Shown here: positions 9,554-22,037 of the stretch, in pieces
Layout: each line of letters opens with the position of its first letter
Position numbering within the stretch: position 1 is the stretch's first letter
IMG/VR virus record: IMGVR_UViG_3300035698_003947
Location: 1 to 23,167 of that record
DNA length: 23,167 nt
Source: a virus
Reading direction: 5' to 3' (one strand)
Translations under genes and position numbers: made by a program
The notes under the pieces: generated by a model
The model's input: the letters and a program-made list of their open reading frames with translations, nothing else
Told to the model about the DNA's origin: nothing
Database searches by the model: none

Positions 9554-10633
9554 TTATTTGTTATTAGTGAATAAAGTTTTATAAGCGTCTTTCCATAAAT
9601 GACCTTTGTTTTCAATGCTATAGTTTTCTTCTACATATTCCTTAGCATCTTTACCCATACTTCTTCGTAGTTCCTTATCTTTTATAAGTTTCTCAATCTG
9701 TTCTATCCAACTATTAGTATCTGTGGCTAGTAATAGATGTTTAGTATCTTCTGGGTTTACTTCATAAGGACTGTCTCCTGTTGGAAAGGATTGACCTATA
9801 GTAGGAATTTCTAACATAGAATTTTCTAGGAATTTAAGATTAGACTTACAGCGATTAAATAGTGAATCAAAGCGTGGAATAATAACCATATCTAATTTAA
9901 GTCCGTTTAGGTACTCATAATACTCGTCTGACGGAGCATAAGAATGCCATTCAATATTTACTTTATTCCAAAAAGCATATTCTTCTACATAGAGTTTCTT
10001 GTATAGTTCATTATCTCCTTCTGGTGGAAGTGATAATAACACTAAACGAACTCTAGGGTCTTTTTCATACTTTTCTATAATAGGTTTTAATACTTCTACA
10101 TCATTTGTTACTCCAACTGAACCAGTAATTCCTATTCTGATTATATCTGTTTCATTTCTTAAAGGTTCTGGGTAATAGAATGGGTCTACAGTATTTGGCA
10201 ATACAATTACATTTTTATTTAATGGTGTATATTCTTTCTTTAGAAACTCCGTTGAACAAGTAATTAGGTCAGCTTCTTTAACAAAGGTATCTATATTCTT
10301 ATTGATTTTACCTAATCCTTTCTTTACTCGTTCTTCATTCATAAATTCAGTAAATTTAAAACCATTTGTATCTTTGTAAGTATCATCATTATCAAAGACA
10401 ATCTTTTTGCCTTGTGCTTTTAAAGCTCTTGCAATAGCTAGTAATTCGTCTGATTCTGGTCGGTGGAAAACTATCACATCAGCGTCTACCACTGCCTGTG
10501 CCTTAGCATCTGCTGTTATTTGTTTAAGTGTTAAAGATGTTCTGTCTCCATCCCAGCCATTTTCTTGTAAAGGGAAAAGACATCTTACGTTATAACATCC
10601 TTCTAATTTTGTGTGTATGTAATATACTTTCAT
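9554..10633 (-). CDS. GT-B fold glycosyltransferase (GT4-like) in virion operon
   Basis: A 359-residue protein with two Rossmann-like halves. Residues 1-~160 end in CSTEFLKKEY and VIVLPNTVDPFYY, the usual acceptor-domain end of GT4 enzymes. The C-terminal half starts at IRIGITGSVGVTNDVEVL and includes DMVIIPRFDSLFNRCKSNLK followed by FLENSMLEIPTIGQ, which matches the E-x7-E donor-binding region in position and character. Family members move a sugar from a nucleotide donor to a glycan or protein in the cytoplasm. It is cotranscribed with capsid genes, 2 nt before the next ATG and 2 nt after the Pro-rich gene, far from the other sugar genes at 16900-22037. This suggests glycosylation of a virion protein, though host-surface modification is possible. 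Confidence 0.8.
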   Translation of the reverse strand: MKVYYIHTKLEGCYNVRCLFPLQENGWDGDRTSLTLKQITADAKAQAVVDADVIVFHRPESDELLAIARALKAQGKKIVFDNDDTYKDTNGFKFTEFMNEERVKKGLGKINKNIDTFVKEADLITCSTEFLKKEYTPLNKNVIVLPNTVDPFYYPEPLRNETDIIRIGITGSVGVTNDVEVLKPIIEKYEKDPRVRLVLLSLPPEGDNELYKKLYVEEYAFWNKVNIEWHSYAPSDEYYEYLNGLKLDMVIIPRFDSLFNRCKSNLKFLENSMLEIPTIGQSFPTGDSPYEVNPEDTKHLLLATDTNSWIEQIEKLIKDKELRRSMGKDAKEYVEENYSIENKGHLWKDAYKTLFTNNK

Positions 10634-14855: not shown

Positions 14856-15013
14856 CTTGAACTTTTATTATTATTTCTATGTTTACACTCCATCCTTTCG
14901 TTTTCTTCTATTGGGTCTAGTTTATTATAATGTCTTTCAGGTTCTTTAAAGTATATACTTTTGATTAAAGCATACTCAGCTGGGTCTGAAAGTGTTGGTC
15001 TAGGTTTCTTCAT
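14852..15013 (-). CDS. Small basic protein (53 aa) coupled to large terminase
   Basis: I read this ORF directly from ATG 15013 to TGA 14854-14852. Its ATG overlaps the TerL stop as ATGA, and its own stop overlaps the next ATG in the same way. The sequence begins MKKPRPTLSDPAEYALIKSI and continues YFKEPERHYNKLDPIEENER, then MECKHRNNNKSSR. It is polar and probably only partly ordered, with no zinc motif or membrane helix. The paired overlaps put it in the packaging transcription unit. The role is unknown; an accessory packaging factor is possible. Confidence 0.65.
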   Translation of the reverse strand: MKKPRPTLSDPAEYALIKSIYFKEPERHYNKLDPIEENERMECKHRNNNKSSR

Positions 15014-16242
15014 CTTGTTTGATTGTCTAAGTTCCTTAATCTTGATAACATTCTATCAGCATTCTCACCTTCCATATCTCCAGTACCATCTTTAACAAGT
15101 GAGGCAAGACCATAACGAGTTGCATCCATGCCATCACTCCAAGTGTGTTCTGGTTTATTTATTATAACACCATCCCTGTCTATTTCCCATAAATAATTCC
15201 TATAACCTTTATTCAAATTTATACTTCTTCTTGTTACTGAAATTCTCTGTGCTTGAACTAATGCTATACCATGATTTACACTATCCTTTCCTTTCTCTGC
15301 ACCAACAATAGAAACTCCATAGCTTGCTATCTCATCTATACTTTTAGGTTCTGCACTATCAGCAATAACTAATGATGTATCATGGTTCTTTAATATGTCA
15401 GCTATTTGTTTATTGCTTAATCCTTTTTGATAAGTTATCTCATCTAATATATATCCTCCATTGTAATAATAAATAGCAACTATTGCAGTTGGGTCTACTG
15501 AATACCCAAAATCTAATCCATATCTTTCTAGTCTAGCTTCATGTGGTATTTCATCAATTATTACCCAGTCTTTATAAATCTTCCTTCCAAGTGAATAGGG
15601 TTCTCCTAACCATTTATGTTTATACAATGCTGGTCTGTTTGCTTTATCATCTTCTATCTCTTTTCTTATAACTTCTGGCATCCATCCATACTTTAAAGCA
15701 ATATCATAATTAGCATTGATTACTAAAGTATCTGGTCTACCTACTAAAACTAATCTTGTATGAACAGGGTCTTCTTCTAAAAGTCTGTTGTATGTATATA
15801 TAATTTGTGAACCTTCTTTTCTAATTGTTGGGGTTAATACTTCTATACTTTTCTCTGAAACAGTTTGTGCTTCTTCTACCCAAGCTACATCTATTCCCTC
15901 AATAGATTTAATACTCTGCTCATTATTCCATAATCCTTTAAAGAGAAAGTCTGAACCATTTATCCTATTGACTATAGAGTTCTTAGTTAGTTCAAAATCT
16001 GTAAGTCCATATAGTTTTATTAAATCAGCTAATAATTGATAGGAACTATCTGCAATAGAGTTTTGAAACTCTCTAAAACAAGCTACTCTAGTTTTCTTTT
16101 GCCTAGCTCTTATAAGTAATACTCTTGCAACTGTATGAGACTTTAAAGAATATCTACCTCCATAGATAGCAGACTCTCTCCAGTCTTTATCAAATAATCT
16201 TTTATACTCCTTCGGTATTTGTATTATCGTCTGTTTTTTCAT
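15010..16242 (-). CDS. terL: Terminase large subunit (PBSX/XtmB-type)
   Basis: A 410-residue packaging motor and nuclease. The ATPase half has a P-loop-like GGRYSLKS at 28-35, a variant of the usual GGRGSGKS, and a Walker B region VAWVEEAQ at ~119-126 with the catalytic acidic pair. A coupling/adenine-side segment (ITYTYNRLLEEDP-like) is near 150. The C-terminal RNase H-like nuclease has YGLDFGYSVDPTA with its first Asp, LVIADSAEP with the second acidic site, and HTWSDGMDATRYGL with the last, as in Terminase_3/PBSX-type proteins. It cuts concatemeric DNA and pumps it through the portal encoded next. The ATG overlaps the preceding putative small subunit gene by 41 nt. Length is typical for the family. 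Confidence 0.93.
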   Translation of the reverse strand: MKKQTIIQIPKEYKRLFDKDWRESAIYGGRYSLKSHTVARVLLIRARQKKTRVACFREFQNSIADSSYQLLADLIKLYGLTDFELTKNSIVNRINGSDFLFKGLWNNEQSIKSIEGIDVAWVEEAQTVSEKSIEVLTPTIRKEGSQIIYTYNRLLEEDPVHTRLVLVGRPDTLVINANYDIALKYGWMPEVIRKEIEDDKANRPALYKHKWLGEPYSLGRKIYKDWVIIDEIPHEARLERYGLDFGYSVDPTAIVAIYYYNGGYILDEITYQKGLSNKQIADILKNHDTSLVIADSAEPKSIDEIASYGVSIVGAEKGKDSVNHGIALVQAQRISVTRRSINLNKGYRNYLWEIDRDGVIINKPEHTWSDGMDATRYGLASLVKDGTGDMEGENADRMLSRLRNLDNQTR

Positions 16243-16540
16243 TTATAAATTGAACTAATACTTGTTGTAAAGGTTCTCCACCACTTGTTACATCGGTATC
16301 TTGTCTGGCTTTTCCTTCACCAAATTCTATCTGTTCTTTACCAGTAACTCTGTTTTCTTTTAAAAAAGATTCTTTATCTTCATCAGGCATTGCTCTAAAC
16401 TTCCTTCCTAGATAATCTTTCATAGTTCCTTTAGGACGTCCAGAAGGATTACCAGATACACCTGGTATAAAACCCTTACCAGTACACCCACCTAATTTCT
16501 TTTCAGAGTTGTTTATTTCGTTGTTAGCAACATCTTCCAT
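16202..16540 (-). CDS. DUF5681-type protein, putative small terminase
   Basis: A 112-residue protein with the motif GFIPGVSGNPSGRPKGT at ~23-39, the hallmark of DUF5681, a short domain common next to large terminases in phages and prophages. A charged helical middle (PDEDKESFLKENRVTGKEQI) follows, then TSGGEPLQQVLVQFINEK, which also recurs in such proteins. It immediately precedes TerL and overlaps it by 41 nt, the usual place for the DNA-recognition subunit. No classic helix-turn-helix is obvious, so the small-terminase role is inferred from context. The gene has its own promoter with almost no leader, so the ATG may be at or next to the transcript 5' end. Confidence 0.6.
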   Translation of the reverse strand: MEDVANNEINNSEKKLGGCTGKGFIPGVSGNPSGRPKGTMKDYLGRKFRAMPDEDKESFLKENRVTGKEQIEFGEGKARQDTDVTSGGEPLQQVLVQFINEKTDDNTNTEGV

Positions 16541-16690: not shown

Positions 16691-16730
16691 AAACAAAAAT
16701 CACCCACCTAGTACAGGTAAGTGAGTGATT
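16691..16730 (-). terminator. Intrinsic terminator or attenuator hairpin
   Basis: On the leftward transcript AATCACTCAC (16730-16721) pairs with GTGGGTGATT (16707-16698): ten pairs with one G-U and a 13-nt loop. It is followed by a T-rich run TTTGTTTT. This fits a rho-independent terminator for the glycan cassette. It lies only ~43 nt after the predicted start of the 16808-16780 promoter. A loop segment CCTGTAC can instead pair with upstream TACAGG (16750-16745) or GTACAG (16737-16732), so alternative folds are possible. Confidence 0.65.
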
Positions 16731-16810: not shown

Positions 16811-16903
16811 CTATTCTCCACTTCCATATATTATATAAGTAAATAACCAAATTCCAAACCCACAAACTAAAACTATGATTGCTAATCCTTTTAATATAAT
16901 CAC
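16811..16903 (-). CDS. 30-aa single-pass membrane peptide (GTG start)
   Basis: I read this ORF directly. The GTG at 16903 overlaps the upstream gene's TGA as GTGA, and the frame ends at the TAG at 16813-16811. Almost the whole peptide is one hydrophobic helix (ILKGLAIIVLVCGFGIWLFT, then YIIYGSGE), with one Lys near the N-terminus and a Glu at the C-terminus. The 4-nt overlap and clean membrane profile argue for a real gene despite its size. Tiny membrane proteins like this occur as holin-like, spanin-like or host-takeover peptides in phages. No lysis enzyme is nearby, so I do not assign a role. Confidence 0.5.
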   Translation of the reverse strand: MIILKGLAIIVLVCGFGIWLFTYIIYGSGE

Positions 16904-17487
16904 TTCTTGTATTTATTGTTAATTGTTTCTTCTAATTCTTTTAATTGTTCAGGACTTACCCAAGCAGTACCCTTCCATTTTATCATATATTTATTCTCAA
17001 GTCTCATTCTTTTCTGTTCATGTATTACTTCCCAAACATCTGTATGTACTGGTAAGTCAGGATTGAACTCTGTATATTTAAAACCATCTAACCATCTAAC
17101 CTCTAACATTATTGCAGTTGTCTTATCTCTTACAATAGGTAGGTTTGGTAATTCCTTAGTTACAAACTTACCCATGTAATGATAATTGCCTTTTGTCAAG
17201 ACTACATTTCCTTTCTTTTCAAATAATTTATCAAATAATGTTATGTTCTTTATAAGAGTAGTGTCCATTATGTGGACAAACTCATCAAAGTTTTCTTTTC
17301 CTTTTTGTATAACTGCTATTTCCCAACCATTCCAGTCATTTATAATAAGATTATCTATTGGAAAGGTTGGTTTATATCCTCCATTGCTTACCACTAATAC
17401 TTTGTAAGAAGTGTCCTTAATAGAATCTAATAAAGGTCCTAAAAAGTCCTTTGTGTATTCACTTGTACCTATTACTATTCCTTTCAT
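16900..17487 (-). CDS. Short glycosyltransferase-like protein (195 aa)
   Basis: The N-terminus alternates beta strands and helices as in the nucleotide-binding half of a GT-A fold: GIVIGTSEYTKDFLGPLLDS, then YKVLVVSNGG, then WNGWEIAVIQKGKENFDEFV. HIMDTTLIKN follows where GT-A enzymes carry their metal-binding DxD-type motif (here M-D-T-T, so incomplete). The rest includes WLDGFKYTEFNPDLPVHTDV and a charged C-terminal helix. At 195 residues it is short for an active family-2 enzyme, and the weak DxD leaves activity uncertain. It is the last large gene of the cassette. Its ATG overlaps the FkbM gene stop by 4 nt, which ties it to glycan modification. Confidence 0.55.
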   Translation of the reverse strand: MKGIVIGTSEYTKDFLGPLLDSIKDTSYKVLVVSNGGYKPTFPIDNLIINDWNGWEIAVIQKGKENFDEFVHIMDTTLIKNITLFDKLFEKKGNVVLTKGNYHYMGKFVTKELPNLPIVRDKTTAIMLEVRWLDGFKYTEFNPDLPVHTDVWEVIHEQKRMRLENKYMIKWKGTAWVSPEQLKELEETINNKYKK

Positions 17488-18227
17488 AGCTTCTGTATCT
17501 TATCTGGTAATCCTATTCTATTTGTAATTTTCCAACCATTCTTTATCTCTTCAGTTACTTCATAATTTTTGTTTAAAGCAAATACATCTCCATGAGTTGG
17601 TTGTTGCCTACCAAAGAAGAAACCGTGTGTATCTTTTAAAGCGTCTTTGATTATAGGTATTTCTCTATCTCCATGCCATTCACCTCGTATGTGCTTTACT
17701 AAATTCATATAAGGTTTAAATTTCTGCAATATTTGTCCTTCCATTCCTTCTGTATCAACTTTAAGTAAATCTATTCTAGGGAAGTTGTACTTATCCATTA
17801 TCTCTTTAAGAGTTGAAGCCGGAACTTGAATCTGTCCTACCTTTTTTGAACCCATTGGCTTGAATAAATCCCATCGGAAGTTTCCATCAACATGACAATT
17901 ACCCTTCCAATTACAAACATTAAAGGTTACTTCTTTTCTATCATCTCCAACGATAGCCTCTTCTACATAGGTTAGTTTGTTTCCTGTGTTTAGTTTATTG
18001 TATTTCATACATTCTGGTTCTGGTTCACAGGAAAGTATTTTAGCATTAGGAAATAAATTTTGTGCGTGCATTGAAAACATACCAACATTAGCTCCTAAGT
18101 CTACAATGTATTTTATTTCTTTATCACCTTCGGCAATTTCTTTTAATCTGTATTCATCTTCTTCCACTACTGCTGTGTAGTGTCCTTCAACACATTCTTT
18201 TAATTCTGGGGAATAATGTAGTTTCAT
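17484..18227 (-). CDS. FkbM-family SAM-dependent methyltransferase
   Basis: A 247-residue Rossmann methyltransferase. Motif I is YIVDLGANVGMFSMHA (40-55), the SAM-binding loop. The acidic end of strand 2 is ILSCEPEPECMKYN. The FkbM signature RIDLLKVDTEGMEGQIL is at 151-167. The C-terminal part (HGFFFGRQQPTHGDVFALNK) resembles the end of the family's substrate region. FkbM enzymes O-methylate sugars or other hydroxyls, so methyl capping or decoration of a phage- or host-made glycan is the natural reading in this cassette. It shares ATGA overlaps with the gene on each side. The family call is firm; the substrate is unknown. Confidence 0.85.
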   Translation of the reverse strand: MKLHYSPELKECVEGHYTAVVEEDEYRLKEIAEGDKEIKYIVDLGANVGMFSMHAQNLFPNAKILSCEPEPECMKYNKLNTGNKLTYVEEAIVGDDRKEVTFNVCNWKGNCHVDGNFRWDLFKPMGSKKVGQIQVPASTLKEIMDKYNFPRIDLLKVDTEGMEGQILQKFKPYMNLVKHIRGEWHGDREIPIIKDALKDTHGFFFGRQQPTHGDVFALNKNYEVTEEIKNGWKITNRIGLPDKIQKL

Positions 18228-18772
18228 AATATTTTGTTATAAAATTCTAAATATTTATCTCCTAATGCTTCTAAATAAGGTCGTTGTGTATGATAAGCAT
18301 AATGAACTAATAGTGCATCACCTGCAAAGTAGTTAGGTCTGTTATATTTCAAAGGTAATTCCCATGCAATTTGTGGTTCTTCAATATATCCTAAACTAAT
18401 TTTATCTTTACCAAACCAACAAACACTACAAATTGAAAACCTTTCAAAATCATTAAAACTTCTACTTGGTAGGTAATAATTCTCTAAAGTTTTTGCTTCA
18501 TAGTTTTTCTTAAAAGTATTATGTATATGTTCACAGAGTTTAGGGTCTGAGTAATTAAATTCATCTAAATAAGCATAGTTTGGGTCATTCAATGTATATT
18601 TTTTCACAACTCCAGCTTCTTCACTTAAAACTCCTTTTTCTTGATGCCAAGAATTACAGATAGTTGAATTTACTACATTTGGAGTAATAACAAAAGCATT
18701 TGGATTATCTATTCTAGCCTTACAAATCTTTTCAATAGCGTCATCTGCTCCCCAGATTATGTCGTCATCCAT
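18224..18772 (-). pseudogene. Glycosyltransferase, C-terminal part after frameshift
   Basis: The ORF opens with MDDDIIWGADDAIEKICKAR, whose DDD is the metal-binding motif of a GT-A glycosyltransferase. The same frame extends upstream without a stop: THLFFANAQDSDTIYIR precedes the Met, so the true frame continues from the 104-aa ORF at 18775-19089 after a -1 shift at the AAAA run 18826-18823. Joined, the protein is 288 residues, a normal GT-A size. The C-terminal part has NSTICNSWHQE, FERFSICSVCWFGKDKISLG and ALLVHYAYHTQRPYLEALGD. The Met at 18772 is therefore probably not a real start. It overlaps the FkbM gene by ATGA. It may be a mutation, a sequencing or assembly indel, or slippage. Confidence 0.75.
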
Positions 18773-18774
18773 TC

Positions 18775-19089
18775 TTATATAAATTGTATCGCTATCTTGT
18801 GCATTGGCAAAGAATAAATGTGTTTTAATGGATTGAATGTATCATAAAATCCTACATCATTTATTGGATCTCCTATTCTACAAATCTTTACTTTAGGATT
18901 TTCAGCTTCCATACTATTAAGGTAAGCTATATCACTAGGGTCTATAGTATTTTGCCAAAGTTGCCAACTATCAATTAAACCTTCATCCATTTTACGATAA
19001 ATAAACTTCTTAAAAACAGAAAGATATTTCTCTCTTCCTGCTGGAGTACATATTGCTACTTTATATTCTTCGTTGTTATGTTTTATCAT
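18775..19089 (-). pseudogene. Glycosyltransferase, N-terminal part before frameshift
   Basis: A 104-residue ORF with the start of a GT-A fold: YKVAICTPAGREKYLSVFKK, YRKMDEGLIDSWQLWQNTID and DIAYLNSMEAENPKVKICRI. Residues 1-89 make sense up to FNPLK. The remaining residues (HIYSLPMHKIAIQFI) are out-of-frame read-through ending at a TAA. The -1 frame from the AAAA run restores an open frame into the 18224-18772 ORF carrying the DDD motif. Its ATG overlaps the GT75-like gene stop by ATGA, so translation does start here. Alone it would lack the metal-binding and acceptor regions and is unlikely to be active. Confidence 0.75.
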
Positions 19090-19970
19090 TTTGTTAAATT
19101 ATACCATTTTTTTGTATTTTCACGAAATTTGCTGAAAAATGGGTCTCCATTATATTCTTGTGGATTTTTCCAAAAATCCTCGTTATGTCGCAGTCCGACA
19201 GCTTCTTTTTCTAGGGAATTAAAAACATTACTGGCACGATTATGAAGAACCTCTGCATAACCACTAACAATTCCATAATTTAATTCTGCTAATTTGGGAA
19301 TCAATAATACTCCTAAAAATATATCATCAAATCTCTCAGCACCCTTAAAATCCCCAACGGGCGAAAAATAGATAAATTTTAAAATTTCTCTACGAAAGGA
19401 AAGATTCATCCCACAAATAGGAGTAAATATTCCTTTTGGAATTACTCCTTTGTAATAATCAGGTTTAAACTTTGGGTCTGTTAGTAACTGAGTTGGTGCA
19501 TCATAATCAGGAACTCCCCTCCAAATACCATGACTCATCATCACTGGTGCTTCTGTTCTAACTCCATAGGGAAATCCTCTAAAATATGTATCTATCCCTG
19601 TTGAAAGCCAAGATATAGGAACTTTCCTTTGTAATTGGTCTATGTGGTCTTGGATAGGGTCTCCTATTGGCTCTGTATCTGTATCAAAAGTTAAAATGTA
19701 TTCTACATCTGGTAAGTGTTTTGCTATGTAAAGAAATCCTAGTTGTCTTACTCCTGCACACTTGTTTGAAACTAAATCACTTTTTAAATCAATCTTCTTT
19801 CCATCCCAACCAAAATAATACCCAGTATGTTCTATATGCGGGATATTACCACTATCATTTACTAAAATGAAATCTACATTATGTTTATAGAATAATGTTT
19901 GCCATTTACTTAAAAATAAATCGGTTAGTTCTTGTTTATGAGATGGTACAACTATGGCTATGTTTTTCAT
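19086..19970 (-). CDS. RGP/GT75-family protein (UDP-arabinopyranose mutase-like)
   Basis: A 294-residue protein whose core matches the reversibly glycosylated polypeptide (GT75) family. A GT-A nucleotide site YILTFDTDTEPIGDP (91-105) replaces the family's DDD with DTD. RGFPYGVRTEAPVMMSHGIW (131-150) is followed by RGVPDYDAPTQLL, then IPKGIFTPICGMNLSFRREI (177-196), ERFDDIFLG (212-220) and LHNRASNVFNSLEKEA near 252. In plants the family interconverts UDP-arabinopyranose and furanose and self-glycosylates on an Arg in the RGYPFSLR-like segment; the equivalent Arg131 and Arg138 are both present here. A bacterial homologue could use another UDP-sugar. It sits 1 nt after the dehydratase/epimerase gene, supporting a nucleotide-sugar role. 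Confidence 0.75.
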   Translation of the reverse strand: MKNIAIVVPSHKQELTDLFLSKWQTLFYKHNVDFILVNDSGNIPHIEHTGYYFGWDGKKIDLKSDLVSNKCAGVRQLGFLYIAKHLPDVEYILTFDTDTEPIGDPIQDHIDQLQRKVPISWLSTGIDTYFRGFPYGVRTEAPVMMSHGIWRGVPDYDAPTQLLTDPKFKPDYYKGVIPKGIFTPICGMNLSFRREILKFIYFSPVGDFKGAERFDDIFLGVLLIPKLAELNYGIVSGYAEVLHNRASNVFNSLEKEAVGLRHNEDFWKNPQEYNGDPFFSKFRENTKKWYNLTK

Positions 19971-19971
19971 A

Positions 19972-20985
19972 TTAGTTGAGCCATTGCTTATTATCCAGCG
20001 ACCATTTTATATACTTTGATAAAGATTCTTTAAACTTAAAAGGCATAACCCACCCTGTTAATGCTAACTTTTTCCCAGAAAGTGCATAACGTCTATCGTG
20101 ACCTTTTCTTTCTACGTGAAAATCAACTAATTTATATTTAAGTTCTTTATTCATTAATTCAGCTACTAATAATGCTACTTCACGATTATCTAATTCATCA
20201 TCAGAGGTTACATTAAATCTTAAAGGTCTATCCTGTTCTTCTTCATACATTTTTACTGGAATATTCTTTAAGATGTGCATAATTGCGTCTGCATGATTAT
20301 CTACATAAATATAATATCTACCACCTATAAAATTATCATTTCCATGAATAGTTACAGTCTCATTATTGTTTATTTGTTTTATTAGTTTTGAAAGATACTT
20401 TTCACTATCTTGATTTTCACCAAAATTATTAACTGTATTAGTTATTACAATTGGTACATCATAGGTTCTCCAGTAAGACACTGCTATAGCCTCCTGGGAA
20501 GCCTTAGAAGAAGCGTAGGGGTTAGACGGAAGTATTGTATCCCATTCTTTATACCTTGTACCTATTGGGGCAGAACCATAAACTTCATCAGTTGATACTT
20601 GTAAAAATACTTTTGGTTTAACTATTCTAGCTAACTCCAACATTGTTAAAATTAAATCAACATTGTTTTTAATAAATGGTACTGGGTCTTCTATTGAACG
20701 ATATACATGAGAATCACTAGCAACATTAATTATATAATCTATCTGTGGAAAAGTTGAAATTGTATGTTCTGTAAATGGTGAAGTTAAGTCATGGATTATA
20801 ACTCTTACTCTATCTCTATATTCTGGTGTTCTATCAAATATTTCAGTTATTCTTTCTGGTGTGCCTTTATGTTTAAAACTTACAGGACAAATCATATTCC
20901 AGTCTGTATTTTTTAATAAATATTCTAAAGTGTGTGAACCTATAAATCCAGAAACTCCGCTGATTATACAATTTCTTTTATACAT
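19972..20985 (-). CDS. NAD-dependent sugar-nucleotide 4,6-dehydratase/epimerase (extended SDR)
   Basis: A 337-residue extended short-chain dehydrogenase. The cofactor motif GVSGFIG (10-16, GxxGxxG) is near the N-terminus. STDEVYG (131-137), the RmlB-type dehydratase signature with Thr-Asp-Glu, precedes the catalytic pair Tyr157/Lys161 in NPYASSKASQEA. GRYYIYVDNHADAIMHIL later matches the family's substrate-side segment, and the C-terminus (SGKKLALTGWVMPFKFKESL) is typical of dTDP-glucose 4,6-dehydratase-like enzymes. It likely makes a 4-keto-6-deoxy or epimerised nucleotide sugar in the cytoplasm. The exact donor (dTDP, GDP, UDP or CDP) cannot be read from the sequence. It overlaps the HAD gene by 8 nt. 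Confidence 0.85.
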   Translation of the reverse strand: MYKRNCIISGVSGFIGSHTLEYLLKNTDWNMICPVSFKHKGTPERITEIFDRTPEYRDRVRVIIHDLTSPFTEHTISTFPQIDYIINVASDSHVYRSIEDPVPFIKNNVDLILTMLELARIVKPKVFLQVSTDEVYGSAPIGTRYKEWDTILPSNPYASSKASQEAIAVSYWRTYDVPIVITNTVNNFGENQDSEKYLSKLIKQINNNETVTIHGNDNFIGGRYYIYVDNHADAIMHILKNIPVKMYEEEQDRPLRFNVTSDDELDNREVALLVAELMNKELKYKLVDFHVERKGHDRRYALSGKKLALTGWVMPFKFKESLSKYIKWSLDNKQWLN

Positions 20986-21619
20986 ATTTTTTAAGTTTAA
21001 CTAATAAATTTTGTGGATTAACTACTCCCACAGTTTTAATAATACCTACTACACTAAAATCATTTCCACCTTTGAATAAAGCATCTCCAAAATACACACA
21101 ATCTTTTTTCTTGAGTTTGGTTTCTTTTATCCATCTCTTTAAATTATCTCCTTTAGTTCCTTTCTTATTTGTATAATCAAAGCAAGTAGTTCCTGCTATT
21201 CTACAAGTTAGTGTTTTACTTTTAAAAGGATGTTGTTTTAATATTGCTTTTCTTATTATTTGTTTAGGGTCAAAGTTTTTCTTTAAAATAGGATAATTAT
21301 TATGACCAATACAGCTATATGATATTTGACAGCCTCTATCGTCTGTTAATCCTTTTGTTTGCAATCCGTATGTGTCTATATGTAAATAAATTTCTCTTTT
21401 TTCTTTTACAGTAAGTCCATTCCACCAAAGTATTGTATCATTCCCACTTTGAGCCATGATTTCACATTTTAAACCATCTAGTTGATACTTCATTTGTTTC
21501 AATGAAGCTCCAGATATTACTATTAAATTAGGTATCTTAGAAAGAAAATTCTTTATCTTTTTAGAGAGTTTCTGTTTACTTTCGCAGGTTGTATTATCTA
21601 AATCGCAGATTATATACAT
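20978..21619 (-). CDS. HAD-superfamily phosphomannomutase-like protein
   Basis: A 213-residue HAD type IIB protein. The nucleophile motif is ICDLDNTTCESK (Asp6, Asp8), followed by the second motif IVISGASLKQMKYQL. A cap region has RGCQISYSCIGHNNY (95-109), reminiscent of the substrate cap of eukaryote-type phosphomannomutases. GTTCFDYTNKKGTKGDNL (143-160) provides the conserved Lys, and VYFGDALFKGGNDFSV (175-190) the metal-binding acidic end. It could isomerise mannose- or glucose-6-phosphate to the 1-phosphate, feeding the nucleotidyltransferase 1 nt upstream, or act as a sugar-phosphate phosphatase. It is a little shorter than typical eukaryotic phosphomannomutases. Confidence 0.75.
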   Translation of the reverse strand: MYIICDLDNTTCESKQKLSKKIKNFLSKIPNLIVISGASLKQMKYQLDGLKCEIMAQSGNDTILWWNGLTVKEKREIYLHIDTYGLQTKGLTDDRGCQISYSCIGHNNYPILKKNFDPKQIIRKAILKQHPFKSKTLTCRIAGTTCFDYTNKKGTKGDNLKRWIKETKLKKKDCVYFGDALFKGGNDFSVVGIIKTVGVVNPQNLLVKLKKYV

Positions 21620-21620
21620 T

Positions 21621-22037
21621 TTATGATTTCTTTATTCTTTTAATTAAATTTGAACTTGAATAATTATGGTTTCTACTATTATAAATAACTTTTATATTGG
21701 GTAGTAAATCTCTTGCTTCATTTGGTTTATCTCTCCAATCTTCTCCCATAAATCTTATATCTGGTTTTAATTCTTTAAGTAAATTATATAAATCTATTTC
21801 TGTATCGTATGTGATTGTCCTATCAACATATTTACATGCTTCTAACCTTATATATCTTTCTTCAACTGTTTCTATAGGCTTATTCTTTTCTTTTCGGTCT
21901 ATAGTTGGGTCTGTGTGGAGTCCTACTATTAAGTAATCACATTGTGCTTTTACTTCTTTAAGCATTATACAATGCCCCGCATGAAGTAAATCCATAGAAC
22001 CTGCAGTGAATCCTATGATTTTATTAGTTTGTTTCAT
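21621..22037 (-). CDS. Cytidylyltransferase-like nucleotidyltransferase (TagD/HldE-C type)
   Basis: A 138-residue protein covering one complete nucleotidyltransferase domain. The N-terminal signature FTAGSMDLLHAGHCIMLKEV carries the HxGH catalytic motif (19-22). It is followed by DYLIVGLHTD, PIETVEERYIRLEACKYVD, a conserved substrate-side block, and YSSSNLIKRIKKS, equivalent to the C-terminal S-S/T-T motif that binds the nucleotide phosphates. The length matches glycerol-3-phosphate cytidylyltransferase (TagD), and the adenylyltransferase domain of HldE is also similar. It would activate a sugar or polyol phosphate for the downstream enzymes. No Shine-Dalgarno is visible; a TATAAT lies 7 nt before the ATG but lacks a good -35 box. 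Confidence 0.85.
   Translation of the reverse strand: MKQTNKIIGFTAGSMDLLHAGHCIMLKEVKAQCDYLIVGLHTDPTIDRKEKNKPIETVEERYIRLEACKYVDRTITYDTEIDLYNLLKELKPDIRFMGEDWRDKPNEARDLLPNIKVIYNSRNHNYSSSNLIKRIKKS

Follow-up and report, generated by a model that had tools for sequence, protein, structure and literature searches.

The Rml-type deoxysugar route combines a phosphoglucomutase (PGM), the nucleotidyltransferase RmlA and the 4,6-dehydratase RmlB, and the same mutase, nucleotidyltransferase and dehydratase logic is found in a gene cassette at positions 16900-22037 of IMGVR_UViG_3300035698_003947, a 23,167-bp IMG/VR virus record that was analysed whole and is called the window below. The cassette differs from this route in that its nucleotidyltransferase (NT) is of the HxGH type and not of the GT-A fold, and in that it has neither RmlC nor RmlD. 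In Patescibacteria as well as in related phages, the neighbours of the type of HAD gene that the cassette carries, and fusions to mannose-6-phosphate isomerase (PMI) domains, recall the ManA/ManB/ManC route to GDP-mannose, but an HxGH enzyme stands in the ManC slot, and the window cassette has no PMI gene. The GT75 family of nucleoside diphosphate (NDP)-pyranose mutases includes MtdL and the plant UDP-arabinopyranose mutases/reversibly glycosylated polypeptides (UAM/RGP) (PMC9937993). The GT75 protein of the window shares with them the family profile, the DXD motif and the equivalents of MtdL R159, R257, D260, H287 and R289, but it is a predicted mutase, about 80 residues shorter than MtdL and carried by a phage within a compact cassette.

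Virion glycosylation has been shown experimentally in the mycobacteriophages Che8 and Corndog, where phage-encoded glycosyltransferases modify virion proteins (cited in PMC12363180); the window cassette, by comparison, is a candidate system recognized from its genes and brings its own sugar-activation genes. Phages of Patescibacteriota, the same host phylum, carry nucleotide-sugar genes of the rmlB, gmd and manA types (PMC12911398), and the available part of that source lists single genes without naming GT75 or an HxGH-HAD module. The balance of the evidence leans towards the window cassette being a late-region phage operon that would make and attach a modified sugar. The genes present and their order, the folds of the proteins, the conservation of active-site residues and the recurrence of the block were observed directly, and from them we infer the substrates, the nucleotide, the direction, the acceptor and all activities.

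Gene order and recurrence of the cassette

Eight minus-strand open reading frames (ORFs), representing seven genes of which one is split, fill 16900-22037 exactly, and every junction is an overlap of 4 or 8 bases or a gap of 1-2 bases, which bears out the tightly packed set described in the original prediction for this DNA. The order of transcription is NT, HAD, SDR, GT75, a glycosyltransferase (GT) in two pieces, an FkbM methyltransferase and X195, after which come TerS and TerL (16540-15010). The block SDR-GT75-GT-FkbM-X195 directly precedes the terminase genes in about 15 related phage contigs. Independent contigs repeat this order at 40-85% identity, so it is not due to chance; some of the relatives' cassettes are interrupted by HNH genes or extra methyltransferases. 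Recurrence as a block had been named in advance as a check on the joint pathway, and the homologues are indeed linked in related contigs rather than single and scattered. FkbM and X195 are even fused as one protein in four contigs (L048, L080, L084, and L122). Among 13 related records searched, NT is present in 6/13 and HAD in 4/13, always alongside NT; presence is nested, with HAD only where NT occurs and NT only where SDR occurs. The core of the cassette is SDR, GT75, GT, FkbM, and X195, with NT and HAD as optional add-ons.

The surroundings of GT75 were also compared across 62 diverse loci, where 126 ORFs lying no more than two genes from GT75 were set against 114 control ORFs more than 6 kb away at the same loci (Fisher p; one protein can match several models). 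Methyltransf_24 was found in 18/126 neighbours against at most 1/114 controls (p 5e-5), GT2 in 15/126 against 2/114 (p 0.0016), Methyltransf_11 in 12/126 against 2/114 (p 0.009), and Epimerase in 7/126 against 1/114 (p 0.045). Among 50,697 named phage records, a search for GT75 matched a single one, yet 76 IMG/VR loci emerged in a wider scan.

Relatives with 44% identity in GT75 occur within a Saccharimonadales genome and, next to an integrase, in a genome of 1.1 Mb; terminase relatives were found in 3/380 Patescibacteria genomes. This phage group likely infects the ultra-small Patescibacteria, which, by extension, would also be the hosts of the window phage itself. In the 1.1-Mb genome (L074/L147; metagenome-assembled genome BP8.bin62), a 528-kb contig carries the GT75-bearing phage region close to one end, together with a tyrosine integrase, and the region is probably a prophage. 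In a further relative, the 39.35-kb L062 (IMGVR_UViG_3300018072_000002), the HAD gene runs across the contig ends, so that this contig probably represents a whole genome closed into a circle.

The HxGH nucleotidyltransferase and its HAD partner

NT (21621..22037, minus strand, 138 aa) is a proposed hexose-1-phosphate nucleotidyltransferase. It matches PF01467 at 1.5e-18, and its H19-G21-H22 residues are invariant across 8 homologues. It belongs to this HxGH superfamily and lacks the GT-A-fold NTP_transferase domain typical of ManC/RmlA, so that, judged by its sequence, it would be at most a functional analogue of a ManC/RmlA-type sugar-1-phosphate nucleotidyltransferase. Its closest solved relatives in the PDB are cytidylyltransferases of the ethanolamine-phosphate and glycerol-3-phosphate types, and its best NCBIfam name is heptose-1-phosphate adenylyltransferase (TIGR02199, 4.9e-23), with 81.6 bits that do not reach the cut-off of 181.5.

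The HAD-IIB protein (20978..21619, minus strand, 213 aa) matches PF08282 (1.8e-8) and the phosphomannomutase (PMM) family PF03332 (4.4e-5). In a profile search of the PDB, it gives a full-length match to the Lactococcus alpha-phosphoglucomutase 4bnd at 3.1e-56, with PMMs next, while the best HAD protein outside the PMM/PGM group reaches 2.4e-10. Its AlphaFold model (pLDDT 89) superimposes on 4bnd with Z 23.3 and a root-mean-square deviation (rmsd) of 2.4 over 207 aligned residues; PMMs score Z 14.8-19.2 and other HADs at most 15.9. The DxDxT nucleophile motif and GDxxxxGGND are retained, with a few members varying at the GG positions in a wider set of 14. Profile, model and motifs thus class the protein as a mutase of the PMM/alpha-PGM type rather than a GmhB-type phosphatase; compared with the Lactococcus enzyme and eukaryotic PMM, whose fold and motifs it shares, it is smaller, and its mutase role is predicted.

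The two genes also keep company elsewhere. HAD relatives adjoin an HxGH gene in the phages L156 and L159 (both with an SDR gene), L158, L161, and L163, and in the Acinetobacter phage Ab1-TPeters, and lie near one in L169. In the Acinetobacter phage vB_AbaM_3098 a cupin is fused to NT, and in L158 the fusion partner is a PF01050 mannose-6-phosphate-isomerase domain. The Synechococcus phage RB11-B has this type of NT close to a gene annotated as mannose-6-phosphate isomerase, and epimerases, RmlC, FkbM, and a GT come after NT. HAD is present in 57/380 Patescibacteria genomes. Among 40 Patescibacteria neighbourhoods, four have a ManC-type gene next door to HAD (L180 is a further case) and another four an HxGH gene, and none has the two together; most of these 40 loci have neither partner, which tempers any conclusion about the ManC slot. 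The contigs L186 and L189 have a divergent Rml-type cluster in common, one with HxGH and the other with ManC. Since the HAD partner in Patescibacteria is either ManC-type or HxGH, and since HxGH domains are fused to HAD or PMI, activation of hexose-1-phosphate probably falls to the HxGH enzyme in place of ManC.

Three Patescibacteria loci deserve a separate description. An HxGH domain and HAD form one 415-aa protein at L184:3511-4758 (+), an HxGH-PMI fusion adjoins HAD at L203:3096-3908 (-), and PMI, HxGH, and HAD stand in a row beside a GH130 mannooligosaccharide phosphorylase at L197:3987-5573 (-). These fusions and this row make up a candidate alternative route of hexose activation outside phages.

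Later enzymes of the cassette and its neighbours

The extended SDR protein (19972..20985, minus strand, 337 aa) carries GxxGxxG, YxxxK, and the TDE catalytic signature of RmlB-type NDP-hexose 4,6-dehydratases; T132-D133-E134, Y157, and K161 are invariant in 16 homologues, and its PDB matches are dTDP-glucose 4,6-dehydratases. The RmlB model TIGR01181 is matched at 4.7e-61 with 206.6 bits, under the equivalog cut-off of 365.1, and the HldD model TIGR02197 at 4.3e-8 with 32.7 bits against a cut-off of 274.6. By these scores, the protein is RmlB-like, though not to be filed as RmlB, and not HldD-like.

The GT75 protein (19086..19970, minus strand, 294 aa) is a proposed NDP-pyranose/furanose mutase. 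It matches PF03214 at 2e-27 (96.7 bits against a cut-off of 23.8), and its profile finds the UDP-arabinopyranose mutase 8cid (7e-27) and MtdL. The MtdL residues DXD, R159, R257, D260, H287, and R289 correspond to D96/D98 (D96-T-D98), R131, R213, D216, H243, and R245, all of which except R245 are invariant in 18 members. In MtdL, R159 is the autoglycosylated arginine, and H287 binds the metal (PMC9937993).

The split gene has its two halves in different frames. The N-terminal half (18775..19089, minus strand) is GT-A-like (PHROG 4447 glycosyltransferase, 0.0017), and the C-terminal half (18224..18772, minus strand) begins at the DDD motif. About 15 relatives, all of those examined, encode the enzyme in a single open frame of 271-337 aa that includes this motif, and 11/11 of the relatives listed have one ORF; the frameshift in the window may be a true mutation or an assembly error. 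A sequence search with the split GT against the PDB gave no match. The FkbM-family methyltransferase (17484..18227, minus strand, 247 aa) matches TIGR01444 at 1.3e-21 (77.6 bits against a cut-off of 37.7) and PF05050 at 5.7e-14. X195 (16900..17487, minus strand, 195 aa) found no match in sequence searches, but its AlphaFold model (pLDDT 89) has the GT-A fold of a small glycosyltransferase-like protein: VIA (WrtF) is the best match, with Z 12.3 and rmsd 2.7 over 145 aligned residues, followed by a Leptospira GT (12.2) and glycogenin (12.0).

Downstream lie TerS (16202..16540, minus strand), a small ORF recognized by its place and its conservation beside TerL, and the terminase large subunit TerL (15010..16242, minus strand; PF04466, 1.7e-34). 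A terminator-like hairpin with a 13-pair stem and a T tail stands 3′ of the cassette (16698..16730, minus strand). It was found in the window alone, and a simple scan of the relatives detected none, so a conserved terminator after X195 was rejected. A further glycosyltransferase, GT359 (9554..10633, minus strand; PHROG 7162, 6e-36), lies within the structural block, and relatives that have no cassette conserve it too. Compared with the window, TerL is mosaic or replaced in L061, L063, L064, and L046 (26% identity, or half conserved), while the same phages share the portal and the cassette at 60-75% identity. The major capsid gene is interrupted by HNH-type genes at L065:12311-12838 and L046:6037-6687.

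Proposed pathway, its target and competing explanations

In the pathway proposed for the cassette, HAD would turn a hexose-6-phosphate into hexose-1-phosphate, and the HxGH enzyme would add a nucleotide, standing in for a ManC/RmlA pyrophosphorylase, to yield an NDP-hexose. SDR would convert this to NDP-4-keto-6-deoxyhexose, GT75 would change the ring form of the sugar, the two GT-A enzymes would transfer sugars to an acceptor that is soluble and most probably a virion protein, and FkbM would O-methylate the glycan. Phages without NT and HAD would presumably take the NDP-hexose from the host. The joint pathway of the original prediction gains from the conserved block, from the FkbM-GT-A fusions, and from HAD, SDR, and GT75 having kept their catalytic residues; active sites are intact except in the one frameshifted GT, so loss in most members is not the case. 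The suggested structural and family comparison places HAD in the PMM/alpha-PGM fold, X195 in the GT-A fold, and GT75 in the MtdL/UAM family, and the Rml-like part of the analogy is supported.

Several observations weigh against this pathway. No 4-ketoreductase was found in the cassette. Ring contraction by GT75 needs a C4 hydroxyl, which the product of a 4,6-dehydratase does not have, so the missing step would fall to a reductase of the host, or else GT75 takes another sugar. The window GT75 does not keep Asp87 of MtdL, which has been proposed as a helper residue, and one GT is frameshifted in the window, with intact copies in relatives. Both NT and HAD are missing from G006 (35.9 kb) and G008 (40.9 kb), two related contigs that are nearly whole, and the bacterial HxGH enzymes bearing the decisive fusions share only about 27-33% identity with the window NT. 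To call the set a full route was therefore too strong, given the ketoreductase, the two contigs, and the broken GT.

As for the target, the cassette proteins show no clear membrane segments, and X195 directly abuts TerS in L046, both of which fit a cytoplasmic, late acceptor. Together with the position of the block beside packaging and head genes and the presence of GT359 in the structural block, the lack of clear membrane segments favours a virion protein, which the glycan would most likely decorate. The cassette might instead alter the host cell surface, for superinfection exclusion or adhesion, with the sugars going to lipid carriers or envelope polymers of the host. The nucleotide-sugar genes of Patescibacteriota phages are interpreted in this way in PMC12911398, and relatives occur as prophages (L074/L147 with an integrase, L075 in a Saccharimonadales genome), but a flippase, polymerase, ligase or membrane-bound glycosyltransferase is missing from the cassette, and both its late position next to the terminase and the additional GT among structural genes speak against it; we consider this explanation less likely than decoration of the virion, though it is the most serious of the rivals. 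Modification of DNA is far less probable. Phages do make pentose-modified DNA (PMC6024577, PMC12838424), and arabinose mutases belong to GT75, so the GTs could in principle glycosylate a modified base, as in the arabinosylated DNA of RB69 (PMC6024577). However, the RB69 candidate proteins are of other families, 31 non-structural ORFs scanned from relatives include no base hydroxymethylase or thymidylate-synthase-like enzyme, and the cassette adjoins packaging and head genes; arabinosylation of the RB69 type was rejected on the first two grounds.

The remaining doubts concern the first two genes. In the heptose route (GmhB/HldE/HldD), to which the original prediction also likened the set, NT would make ADP-heptose, HAD would be a bisphosphate phosphatase, and SDR an epimerase. 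Apart from the best NCBIfam name of NT, itself far under the cut-off, the evidence runs the other way, as HAD is of the mutase type, SDR is far closer to RmlB than to HldD, no heptose kinase or isomerase was seen, and the partner of HAD in hosts is ManC or HxGH. This part of the analogy is hardly credible and was rejected. It is somewhat less improbable, but still doubtful, that NT and HAD serve a separate end, such as CDP-alcohol synthesis, and precede the glycan genes by accident. The cytidylyltransferases closest to NT in the PDB and the relatives devoid of both genes agree with such a role; against it stand the NT-HAD pair in many phages, joined by SDR in L156 and L159, the PMI and HAD fusions in hosts and phages, and the sugar genes that accompany this NT type in RB11-B.

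More broadly, we tentatively suggest that HAD and HxGH form a route to NDP-hexoses that has had no earlier name, common to Patescibacteria and phages, with HxGH replacing ManC; here it may feed a 4,6-dehydratase and a GT75 mutase and so coat virions with a methylated furanose glycan. Neither a GT75-centred cassette nor the HxGH-for-ManC swap was found in the literature searched, and no HxGH hexose-1-phosphate enzyme or phage NDP-furanose mutase was found there either, which is weak evidence of absence. If the suggestion is true, there would be a second, non-homologous way to activate hexose phosphates, which would account for some phage genes being annotated as "heptose adenylyltransferase" or "TagD". 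Furanose-forming GT75 enzymes would be brought into phages, and small phages of very reduced bacteria would have a glycan pathway of their own.

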